IMG/VR virus record: IMGVR_UViG_3300036651_001726
Span: 1 to 21,745 of that record
Length of the DNA: 21,745 nucleotides
Reading direction: 5' to 3' (one strand)
Source: a virus
Shown: positions 3,890 through 21,745 of the stretch, one piece after another
How positions within the stretch are numbered: position 1 is the first letter of the stretch
How the letters are laid out: every line of letters starts with the position of its first letter
Notes under the pieces: generated by a model
Seen by the model: the letters and a program-made list of their open reading frames with translations, nothing else
Databases searched by the model: none
Told to the model about the DNA's origin: nothing
Program-made: the position numbers and the translations under genes

Positions 3890-3930
3890 AGCATACAGCA
3901 GAGACCCCCGGCCGTGGAGCCGGGGGTCTC
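3890..3930 (-). terminator. Strong hairpin followed by TGTATGCT box
   Basis: Arms GAGACCCCCGGC (3901-3912) and GCCGGGGGTCTC (3919-3930) form a perfect 12-bp stem with a 6-nt loop, just downstream of the Ig-domain tail protein gene in the minus direction. There is no U-tract, as is common for actinobacterial terminators. Three bases later on the minus strand is TGTATGCT (3890-3897), a possible -10 box for the chaperone gene, whose GTG is at 3858. The remaining gap up to 3975 shows nothing else clear. Confidence 0.72.
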
Positions 3931-17481: not shown

Positions 17482-17519
17482 TTGCCTGGTGAGAGCAGGC
17501 GTGACAGTGGCGACCGTCG

Positions 17520-17592
17520 CTCGCTCCGCAGGACTCGAACCTGCAACCTACTGGTTAACGGCCAGTTGCTCTGCCAATTGAGCTAGGGGCGA
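17520..17592 (-). tRNA. tRNA-Asn (GTT)
   Basis: The minus strand folds as a tRNA: acceptor TCGCCCC/GGAGCGA (one C-A mismatch at the fifth pair), D stem GCTC/GAGC, anticodon stem ACTGG/CCAGT around loop CCGTTAA (anticodon GTT, Asn), variable AGGTT, T stem GCAGG/CCTGC with loop TTCGAGT, and discriminator G. No CCA is encoded. Single tRNAs are common in actinobacteriophages and may supply a codon or serve as a remnant integration site. Confidence 0.93.
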
Positions 17593-18566: not shown

Positions 18567-18874
18567 ATGTCGATGAGGGGATGCTTCGCGCGTCCCAGTC
18601 CATCGCTCAGGCGCCAATGCACCCCGGCCTGCTCATACTCGGCCCGGCTCGGGTATGCCGCCCGCAGCGGCCCCCAGAAGGCGCTGGATTTGCCGATGAA
18701 CAGCCCGGCCATCAGACCGCCCCACCCCTCGGGCTCGATGACGCTCATCAGCCGCACCGTGCCGTAGCAGATACCGCCGAAGAACACCGTGCTGCCCACC
18801 TGCAGCCGCCTCTGGCGTGCTCGCTCCATGGCGACAGGCCGCAGCCTGCGGGCTACTCGCGTGGGGATTCGCAT
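18563..18874 (-). CDS. Unrecognised 103-aa protein, first of the minus-strand block
   Basis: This protein has a basic N-terminus (MRIPTRVARRLRPVAMERARQRRLQ), then a Gly/Phe-rich moderately hydrophobic stretch (VGSTVFFGGICYGTVRLMSV, GGLMAGLFIGKSSAFWG) and a polar end (RAEYEQAGVHWRLSDGLGRA). The hydrophobic part is not long enough or clean enough to be a sure membrane span. ATG 18874 has no Shine-Dalgarno sequence; TATCCT lies 6 nt upstream. It is the rightmost gene of the leftward block and faces the divergent intergenic region. No family is recognised. Confidence 0.65.
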   Translation of the reverse strand: MRIPTRVARRLRPVAMERARQRRLQVGSTVFFGGICYGTVRLMSVIEPEGWGGLMAGLFIGKSSAFWGPLRAAYPSRAEYEQAGVHWRLSDGLGRAKHPLIDI

Positions 18875-19171: not shown

Positions 19172-19354
19172 ATGACCACCTATCGCAACGCGCGCCCGTC
19201 GCGCGCTCAGCGTGACCCCGGTACGGATGCCGCCATGCGCGCGCGTCGTGCTGAGCGTGCCAACCGTGAGGCTGAGCGCACCACCACCACCACCCCCGAC
19301 TGGGATGCACTCGCTGCCGAGCTGCACACGCTGCCCGTGGGGGTGGCCCGATGA
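19172..19354 (+). CDS. Unrecognised 60-aa basic protein
   Basis: This first rightward gene encodes a 60-residue protein with a strongly basic, Arg/Ala-rich first half (MTTYRNARPSRAQRDPG, AAMRARRAERANREAERT), a short Thr run, and a compact end (PDWDALAAELHTLPVGVAR). GGGAGAG about 4-6 nt upstream is a good ribosome site. Its stop overlaps the next ATG (ATGA). The Arg-rich helix could bind nucleic acid, but this is only charge-based. It opens a very compact five-gene unit. Confidence 0.65.
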   Translation: MTTYRNARPSRAQRDPGTDAAMRARRAERANREAERTTTTTPDWDALAAELHTLPVGVAR

Positions 19355-19623
19355 ACGCGCGCGCCCGGTCCTACGTGGTGCTGCCCCATGGGGGCTACCC
19401 CGACACGGCATCCGACTACATCGAGTGCGCCACGCGCGCCGACGTCGAGGCGCAACTCATGGACTACGGCTGGATGTACAACCCCGCGGTGACAGTCTTC
19501 ATTGTCACCAAGGATGAGACCCCCGCGGATGTCATCCACGAGTTGATCCAGTCGAGTGACCCCTACCCCGATTGGGTAGTCGAGCGTGGCCCCCGTGGCG
19601 GCATCCGTTGGGAGCGTGCCTGA
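19351..19623 (+). CDS. Unrecognised 90-aa protein
   Basis: This 90-residue product reads MNARARSYVVLPHGGYPDTA, then SDYIECATRADVEAQLMDYG, strands such as YNPAVTVFIVTKDE, and a short helix PADVIHELIQS; it ends GPRGGIRWERA. The alternation suggests a small alpha/beta fold. The start overlaps the previous stop (ATGA) and its own TGA overlaps the next ATG (TGATG). No family is recognised; the protein is probably an early phage accessory factor by position. Confidence 0.68.
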   Translation: MNARARSYVVLPHGGYPDTASDYIECATRADVEAQLMDYGWMYNPAVTVFIVTKDETPADVIHELIQSSDPYPDWVVERGPRGGIRWERA

Positions 19624-19721
19624 TGTGTGAGGCGTGCGCCTACCGGGCAACCCATGGGTACGGCTTCCCCGCTGTCGACCCCTGCCCCCACCGGCTCGAC
19701 CCGTGGCACGGCTCCCGCTAA
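19623..19721 (+). CDS. Tiny Cys/His peptide (32 aa)
   Basis: An ORF of 32 residues starts at ATG 19623, overlapping the preceding TGA by one base. It begins MCEACAYRATHGYGFPAVDP and continues CPHRLDPWHGSR. The CxxC and CxH spacing (C2, C5, C21, H23) is that of a minimal zinc knuckle. Translational coupling supports it. It is small enough that chance cannot be excluded, and no family is known to me. Confidence 0.5.
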   Translation: MCEACAYRATHGYGFPAVDPCPHRLDPWHGSR

Positions 19722-19742
19722 TCCGGTTCACTAGTCTGCCTC

Positions 19743-19764
19743 CCCATGCCCCTACCGGCATGGG
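19743..19764 (+). terminator. Small hairpin between rightward genes
   Basis: CCCATGCC (19743-19750) and GGCATGGG (19757-19764) form an 8-bp stem with a 6-nt loop after the 32-aa ORF. It lacks a U-tract and may attenuate rather than end transcription into the next gene. Confidence 0.4.
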
Positions 19765-19813
19765 TGGGCGGGCGGGCTAACCGGCCCATACTCCAAACAG
19801 AATGGATCTCACC

Positions 19814-20467
19814 ATGAGCACCCGAACGATCGTAGAGCGCACCATCCCGGCGCGCGACCTGCCCCGCTATGTCGGATGGCAGGCCAACGGCATCATGCGA
19901 AACGATGGCCGTTTCGCGTGGGGGCCGATTCTCGAGGCCACAGACCACGAGAGCCCGTCGCCCTATTACCCGGGTGAGGTCATCCGATCCGTCAACCTCG
20001 TTATCAACCGCACGGTACAGAACCCCGGCCATGGCGTGACAACCGTTCCCGACGGTGCCCTCGTGCCCCTAGTCAATCCCAGCGGCGAGAACATGGTGAC
20101 GGTCTCCCACGGTGCCGAGGTCGAGACCGCGGGCGATGAGCACCCTGCCACCTGCCGACTCTGCTACCCCGTGGCCGTCATCATGCCGGACGCTTTCCCC
20201 GGCTACGTCTTCCCGTGCGAGTCGATCGACCCCGTGCGGTGGAACGGTTGGGCATGCCCCAATTTCACCCGCGAGCAGGGCATGGCACTCGTGGCAGCGT
20301 CGCTCGATCCGGAATGTGAGGGTGACCCCGTCACCTATGACGCCGAGCGGGATCTCTTCATCGTCACCAGTGAGGGCTACCCCGACGAGCCCGACGAGTA
20401 CGGCCCCATGGCGAACGGGCTCTACCCGATCGGTTCATGGGCGTGGTGCTGGGAGAACGCGCGATGA
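19814..20467 (+). CDS. Unrecognised 217-aa protein
   Basis: This is the largest complete rightward gene. From ATG 19814 (MSTRTIVERTIPARDLPRYV) it has 217 residues; an ATG at 19802 would add MDLT. Neither start has a strong ribosome site, though GGAT lies about 9 nt before the second. It is rich in Pro, Gly, Asp and aromatic residues, with one CxxC (ATCRLCYPVAVIMPD), a further Cys pair, and an acidic C-terminal part (EGYPDEPDEYGPMANGLYP). The pattern suggests a compact beta-rich protein. Its stop overlaps the next ATG. No function is claimed. Confidence 0.7.
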   Translation: MSTRTIVERTIPARDLPRYVGWQANGIMRNDGRFAWGPILEATDHESPSPYYPGEVIRSVNLVINRTVQNPGHGVTTVPDGALVPLVNPSGENMVTVSHGAEVETAGDEHPATCRLCYPVAVIMPDAFPGYVFPCESIDPVRWNGWACPNFTREQGMALVAASLDPECEGDPVTYDAERDLFIVTSEGYPDEPDEYGPMANGLYPIGSWAWCWENAR

Positions 20468-20775
20468 TCGCCGGATACCGGTCGCGCACCTATGACGGGC
20501 GCGCCGTAACCGGTCTGGATGGTGCCGAGATCGCCGACACTCTCGAGGGTGGCACGACGTTCTATCGCACCCCCCGGGGTATCTCCACACTCATCCCGCA
20601 GGATCGCACCCCACGCCGCGCCCGCATGCGCGCCGGTACCGTCGACCACGTCGACCGCTGGGGTAACTCCACTCGTTTCCGTGTGGTCGAGATCCTCCGA
20701 GCCGAGAGCGTGTGCGGCCCGCGTCCGACAATCTACGGGTGGCGCGCGGCGGATGCCGTTGAGGTGCTCGCATGA
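20464..20775 (+). CDS. Unrecognised 103-aa basic protein
   Basis: This 103-residue protein starts at ATG 20464, overlapping the stop of the previous gene by 4 nt, which decides the start over an ATG 27 nt upstream. It reads MIAGYRSRTYDGRAVTGLDG, then a probable strand/turn region (TTFYRTPRGISTLIPQDR) and Arg-rich segments (TPRRARMRAGTVDHVDRWG), and ends YGWRAADAVEVLA. It resembles a small beta-barrel-like protein in its strand pattern, but I cannot name a family. Its stop overlaps the start of a 46-aa ORF. Confidence 0.68.
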   Translation: MIAGYRSRTYDGRAVTGLDGAEIADTLEGGTTFYRTPRGISTLIPQDRTPRRARMRAGTVDHVDRWGNSTRFRVVEILRAESVCGPRPTIYGWRAADAVEVLA

Positions 20776-20912
20776 TCTCCCACCCGCCCGGCGTGCCCAT
20801 TCCGCCCCGCAGCACTCCCGCCCCCCGGGTCATCCACCCGGCGCCGGCCAGCCATAGCTCTCAGGCCGGCATCGCGTCCTGGTTGTACCCCATTTACCCG
20901 ACGGGCGGATAG
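20772..20912 (+). CDS. Pro-rich 46-aa peptide
   Basis: This ORF begins with the ATG overlapping the previous stop (ATGA) and ends with TAG at 20912, just before the AT-rich region. The product is Pro/Ser/Ala-rich (MISHPPGVPIPPRSTPAPRV) and ends WLYPIYPTGG. The composition suggests an unfolded peptide; the coupling argues that it is translated. It could equally be a chance ORF in GC-rich DNA. Confidence 0.45.
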   Translation: MISHPPGVPIPPRSTPAPRVIHPAPASHSSQAGIASWLYPIYPTGG

Positions 20913-20940: not shown

Positions 20941-21040
20941 CTTACAACATACCTATGTGTATATATAGCGATCATATACGTGTGATTACATATACATATG
21001 ATCTATATATAACTACATAACTATAAAGAGAATAGACAAT
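20941..21040. other. AT-rich island (26% GC)
   Basis: By direct count this 100-bp stretch has 26 G or C bases, in a window otherwise strongly GC-rich. It contains many TATA and ATAT steps and an inverted repeat GATCATAT (20970-20977) / ATATGATC (20996-21003). Such DNA melts easily and fits an unwinding element or a strong regulatory region. Confidence 0.85.
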
Positions 21041-21051
21041 GTATCTGTCAA
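21022..21051 (-). promoter_or_regulatory. Leftward promoter TTGACA-N18-TTTATA
   Basis: On the minus strand TTGACA (21046-21051), inside the palindrome, is 18 nt from TTTATA (21022-21027). This is the closest match to a consensus promoter in the window. It would drive transcription into the AT-rich island, where no leftward gene is seen, so it may make a non-coding or primer RNA. Confidence 0.5.
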
Positions 21052-21062
21052 CAGTGTTGACA
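21046..21062. promoter_or_regulatory. Perfect 17-bp palindrome, operator candidate
   Basis: TGTCAACAGTGTTGACA is a perfect inverted repeat of two 8-bp arms around one base. Both arms contain TTGACA in opposite directions. Length and symmetry are those of a dimeric HTH repressor site, overlapping the -35 of the leftward promoter. Confidence 0.62.
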
Positions 21063-21083
21063 CCCCGTAATCACTGGCAACCA

Positions 21084-21112
21084 CCCCTCCCCAGCAAACC
21101 CCCAGAATCCCC
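21084..21112 (-). other. G-quadruplex-type motif
   Basis: The minus strand carries four runs of G (4, 5, 4 and 4 bases; plus-strand C runs at 21109-21112, 21099-21103, 21089-21092 and 21084-21087) separated by loops of 5, 6 and 1 nt. This meets the usual G4 pattern. It lies within a tract (21061-21180) with 55 C and only 11 G on the plus strand. Confidence 0.58.
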
Positions 21113-21326
21113 GTAAACTCAACTCCACACACCAACCCTTATGGTCCACTGACCTAGCAACCCCAGACAATTTCCCCAAACGTATGGACAGACCGCATAC
21201 ATGGGGGTAACCTGGCACCAGGCCATAAGCGATAGCAGCCGAAACGGGGTTTAGCACCATTTCCCGATTTCGGCCCTACAACTCCACACCATCCCGCAGT
21301 ACCCCACTCACAAAGGAGATAGCACC

Positions 21327-21745
21327 ATGACCAGCACGACGAGCATCAAGGATGTACGGCAGGCTTTCGAGGCCCTGCGCACGGCGGTGGCAGCCGCAGG
21401 CATCACCCAGGCGGTGCGGTTCGAGAACTACAACGCGCCGCAGGGCACGCCGGAGCGTTACGGGGAGGTCACGCTCACGGCGGAGAACCTGAGGATGCAG
21501 GAGGGGAGCCCGACCTACGGGCGCGCGTTCCGCCTCTACTTCGTCGGGCCGCACGGGGCGCACTACAACACCACCCCATTCAGCGAGTACCTGGGATGGA
21601 CACGAGCCGAGGCAGAGGACAAGCTGCGCGGCATCGCCCAGGGGATCTACGCGGCACGCGAGGCGGCGCCGACGATCTCGGAGGATCTCATCACCCGGGC
21701 ACGCGCCGCGGTCGCATCCGACGCGCAGCTCCACAGCACGGACTT
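21327..21745 (+). CDS. Unrecognised protein, 3' end outside window
   Basis: An open frame runs from ATG 21327 to the window edge (139 codons, no stop). A good ribosome site, AAGGAG, lies 8 nt upstream. The protein begins MTSTTSIKDVRQAFEALRTA, has alternating strands and helices (YGEVTLTAENLRMQEG, RAFRLYFVGPHG, EDKLRGIAQGIYAAREAA) and looks like a soluble phage protein. I do not recognise a family. It is downstream of the control region, so it may be the first gene of a further rightward unit. Confidence 0.72.
   Translation, partial: MTSTTSIKDVRQAFEALRTAVAAAGITQAVRFENYNAPQGTPERYGEVTLTAENLRMQEGSPTYGRAFRLYFVGPHGAHYNTTPFSEYLGWTRAEAEDKLRGIAQGIYAAREAAPTISEDLITRARAAVASDAQLHSTD

Follow-up and report, generated by a model that had tools for sequence, protein, structure and literature searches.

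The perfect 17-bp palindrome in the main intergenic gap of this phage fragment has, in our estimate, about an even chance of being the site of a dimeric regulator in an origin or early-operon control region, with a role other than the production of a leftward non-coding RNA. We propose that a dimeric helix-turn-helix regulator would bind positions 21046-21062, whose sequence is identical to one apparently used by Microbacteriaceae TetR-family regulators. The site would lie in the main intergenic control region, with a probable AT-rich origin on one side and, on the other, the leader of the rightward early operon, which begins at 21327. A protein bound there would most likely regulate transcription entering this operon and might also influence melting of the AT island next to it; we do not expect the site to drive a leftward non-coding RNA of its own. 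As an argument, the sequence of the palindrome is stronger than its dyad symmetry.

Surroundings of the palindrome

The window analysed here is an entire IMG/VR record of 21,745 bases, an incomplete phage fragment. Its late genes (tape measure, capsid, portal and terminase) are read leftward, with the start of the final one at 18874, and small rightward genes span about 19172 to 20912. A 414-bp gap, with the palindrome inside it, separates the end of this rightward run from the next rightward gene (Table 1). The AT island reported in the preliminary description was borne out, at 26% GC within a 67.5% GC genome; it contains an imperfect dyad (20949-20977 / 20996-21024, 76% complementary), and its folding is somewhat more stable than that of shuffled sequences (z -1.9).

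The same description held that the palindrome had no gene to express. This is correct for the leftward direction, in which the nearest convincing minus-strand gene is the one starting at 18874, but not for the rightward direction, in which the gene at 21327 lies about 265 bp away and has a good ribosome-binding site (AAAGGAGA, 21312-21319) ahead of its ATG. The product of this gene gave no family match and has a weak relative in OX376641. The fold of the leader was considered as an attenuator and rejected, its stability being indistinguishable from that of shuffles (overall fold z -1.3, not significant). Elsewhere in the window, a lone tRNA-Asn gene (17519-17592) sits amid late-strand genes, and a strong 12-bp inverted repeat, GAGACCCCCGGC...GCCGGGGGTCTC (3901-3930), lies between two late genes and is probably a terminator or processing site.

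Table 1. Features in and around the intergenic gap, in window coordinates
Feature	Position	Strand	Remark
Small ORF, 46 aa	20772..20912	+	last ORF of the rightward run that precedes the gap, and border of that gap; from sequence
AT island	20941..21040	no strand	26% GC; synteny makes it a probable origin/control region
Perfect 17-bp palindrome TGTCAACA-G-TGTTGACA (= TGTCAACAGTGTTGACA)	21046..21062	no strand	operator-type, predicted
Leftward TTGACA	21046..21051	-	exact -35 word; spacings of 16-19 nt offer no acceptable -10
Rightward TTGACA	21057..21062	+	exact -35 word; no -10 downstream
C-rich, G-poor stretch	21063..21200	+	GC skew near -0.6; perhaps an untranslated leader to the rightward early operon
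Leader inverted repeat GCCGAAACGGGG / CCCGATTTCGGC	21238..21274	+	stem with one bulge
First rightward gene past the gap	21327..21743	+	at least 139 aa, cut by the record end

The 17-mer beside TetR genes and in other viruses

The phage probably has its hosts in the Microbacteriaceae; the contig of one close relative, L104, comes from a metagenome bin of this family. We refer to it as the probable host family. Of 199 genomes of the family, 5 contain the exact pattern and none the reversed control; when one mismatch is allowed, the counts over 398 genomes are 34 and 1. An open reading frame with a TetR_N domain lay within 1.5 kb of the site in 20 of the 31 loci examined, a search that used the N-terminal domain only, and Pfam confirms TetR at L120 and L123. 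Most of the TetR-linked sites accompany one TetR type and others, for example L143-L146, a second type; an amidohydrolase gene is often close by as well, confirmed as Amidohydro_3 at L120, L121 and L123. Across all loci, TAnnnT stands 16-19 nt from TTGACA in 29 of 66 flanks, compared with a background of 0.2%, and the TTGACA halves at the TetR-linked loci are commonly -35 boxes. Judged from position and enrichment, a role as TetR-linked operator is very likely for the 17-mer in Microbacteriaceae. The recurrent form TGTCAACASTGTTGACA beside one TetR type was seen at L120, L121, L123, L139-L141, L152-L154 and L156-L162.

The phage copy is identical to the Microbacteriaceae sites at 17 of 17 positions. 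It overlaps or abuts no recognizable promoter, since TAnnnT is missing at 16-19 nt from the TTGACA of either half, and no TetR gene was found beside it or elsewhere in the window, a fragment of the phage genome. Neither the window nor the sequences examined of the close relatives L052 and L053 contain the TetR domain (PF00440), and a tyrosine integrase was found in none of the three. The suggestion that a repressor is encoded elsewhere in the phage finds no backing in these relatives; with the window record incomplete, a phage regulator may be encoded beyond its ends. For a lambda-type immunity operator, neither a repressor gene nor signs of a temperate lifestyle were found. The capsid protein has matches in 3 of 398 Microbacteriaceae genomes, strong only in the bin of L104, a distribution that does not point to a common prophage. 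That a metabolite-sensing repressor of the host TetR family times phage early transcription or replication through an exact copy of its operator is, in our view, quite unlikely.

Beyond the host family, 43 viral stretches, some of them near-duplicates, contain the exact 17-mer with any centre, TGTCAACANTGTTGACA, compared with 0 and 11 stretches for two palindromes scrambled from the same bases. It lies in L002 between divergent P22_Cro-like and HTH_3 CI-like genes (both Pfam matches just under the curated cut-offs), and in L019 its TTGACA forms the -35 of a perfect TTGACA-N17-TATAAT promoter. The L007/L020 contig holds three copies and L026 four, the latter inside 3 kb of one viral contig (85-2947), which suggests a phage regulon. 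The term operator-like was thus well chosen in the preliminary description: other phages carry this 17-mer as an apparent operator, and in the probable host family it lies beside TetR genes. As L002 suggests, an operator over two inverted TTGACA boxes could arise by convergence. The bacterial regulation literature that we searched yielded no match to the 15-base core.

Other phage sequences gave observations on separate subjects. In Clavibacter phage CMP1 (L047, NC_013698), positions 1691-1710 at the end of gene CMP1-02 read GATGTTTCACGTGAAACATC, which contains TGTTTCACGTGAAACA, presumably an exact parS-type centromere consensus. Microbacterium phage Cassita (L046) has several small leftward early genes at 200-1360, seemingly with their own TTGACA-N17/18 promoters and with TAGACT, CATACT or TACTAT as apparent -10 words.

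The AT island in related phages

Single-protein scans of viral contigs with the neighbours of the palindrome returned no relatives, and none were found at the DNA level among annotated phages. Alignment of the terminase identified the close relatives L052 (59% identity, a 53.8-kb contig), L053 and L104. In all three, the equivalent gap before the early operon likewise holds an AT island, so that an intergenic AT-rich region suited to unwinding, 26% GC in the window, is syntenic in four phages. In L052 the only two perfect DnaA boxes (TTATCCACA) of the whole 53.8-kb contig flank the lowest-GC island, in L053 the island is flanked by the only two perfect boxes of the stretch examined, and L074, a more distant relative, has four DnaA boxes within about 300 bp of its island. 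The genes of early direction on the L052 contig include those for a primase, a helicase, an annealing protein and an exonuclease. Because DnaA boxes flank the islands of two relatives and the L052 contig carries replication genes, we regard the AT island as probably an origin, or an origin-linked control region ahead of the early operon. No DnaA box at up to one mismatch lies near the island in the window or in L104, and the call for the window island consequently rests on synteny. In L056 and L060, further distant relatives, clusters of four to five DnaA boxes (407-541 and 229-332, respectively) lie 4-5 kb from the lowest-GC island.

These data bear on a reading in which the palindrome is the site of the phage's own replication initiator and the AT island the melting region, with no role in transcription. 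We hold this as a tentative possibility. The island is conserved in place, L052 and L053 have boxes on both sides of it and L074 a cluster nearby, the window island contains an imperfect dyad and folds better than most shuffles, and the L052 contig encodes a primase and a helicase. The palindrome itself fits the proposal less well: it is a single copy rather than part of an iteron array, L052, L053 and L104 do not have it at their syntenic islands (nor is there a 17-mer within two mismatches anywhere in the 53.8 kb of L052), and its arms, which we considered as DnaA boxes and rejected, differ from that box at two positions, the core C included.

Chance, the leftward promoter and comparison with known systems

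The claimed dyad is present and perfect, at 21046-21062, with 8-bp arms around a 1-bp centre (8+1+8). A palindrome as good as this one nevertheless turns up in 1.5-3.5% of dinucleotide shuffles of the gap (1.5% with a spacer of up to 1), and the whole window holds 13 palindromes with arms of at least 8, against 5.7 expected; as the window is palindrome-rich overall, the dyad by itself is modest evidence. A neutral palindrome, arisen by chance in an AT-biased intergenic region and bound by no protein, would agree with these frequencies and with the lack of conservation in relatives. We consider this rather unlikely in view of the full 17-bp identity to a motif strongly enriched beside regulator genes of the probable host family, and of the TGTCAA...TTGACA dyad, which shuffling the gap by dinucleotides produced just once in 3000 trials.

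The preliminary description placed the palindrome over a near-consensus leftward promoter, repressible and starting at about 21020, whose product would be a non-coding RNA, an antisense RNA or a replication primer. The leftward -35 word is exact, but TTTATA (21022-21027, minus strand, N18) matches TATAAT at 3 of 6 positions (T1, T3 and A4) and lacks the conserved A2 and T6, and TTGACA-N18-TTTATA was not among the promoters reported by our scan. With TAnnnT missing at 16-19 nt, the pair of suitably spaced hexamers of a sigma-70 type promoter is lacking on the leftward side; the best leftward -10 word is TATAGT, at a spacing of N20. A transcript from there would enter the AT island with its somewhat stable fold, and a replication-primer role is conceivable because DnaA boxes surround the island in two relatives. 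Given the poor -10 word, the absence of the palindrome from the syntenic islands of the three close relatives, an Rfam search of the region that returned sub-threshold matches only (mostly microRNA families on AT repeats) and a direction of transcription that would run against the early genes, we judge the leftward promoter and its RNA improbable.

Several observations also count against the dimeric-regulator site that we favour: the palindrome is unconserved at the islands of three relatives and present in one copy, neither side has a good -10, the window island has no DnaA box at up to one mismatch, and a TetR gene is absent from the window and its relatives. The comparison defines TGTCAACASTGTTGACA as a recurrent TetR-linked motif in Microbacteriaceae, and the AT island flanked by DnaA boxes is a likely replication origin for a little-studied group of actinobacterial phages. 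Were a host TetR-family regulator to bind the phage site, phage early control would be wired to host metabolism in a directly testable way.

Among known systems, the stoperators of mycobacteriophages, as described in PMC9283540, are present in large numbers, lack symmetry and bind a monomeric repressor. The likeness to that account is a regulator site in an actinobacterial phage, here a predicted one; the difference is that ours is one symmetric site. A stoperator-like array of many copies, as in Cluster A, was rejected, there being one copy in the 21.7-kb fragment record and no further 17-mer in it at up to three mismatches. Lambda-type CI/Cro operators share the 17-bp dyad with one central base, and the L002 copy lies between Cro-like and CI-like genes, whereas the phage site is single, is not located between divergent genes and comes with no repressor or integrase that we could find. 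An oriC-type origin flanked by DnaA boxes likewise has an intergenic AT island of about 100 bp, with two perfect boxes each in L052 and L053; it differs from the window in its boxes, of which the relatives have few and the window none at up to one mismatch. In the Microbacteriaceae, the TetR-linked sites beside YtcJ-type amidohydrolase genes (for example L120, L121 and L123) adjoin a TetR gene and a likely target, and their TTGACA halves act as apparent -35 boxes with TAnnnT. Unlike them, the phage site has neither promoter nor TetR gene in view, yet it shares with them an intergenic position and the same TGTCAACASTGTTGACA, identical or with one mismatch.
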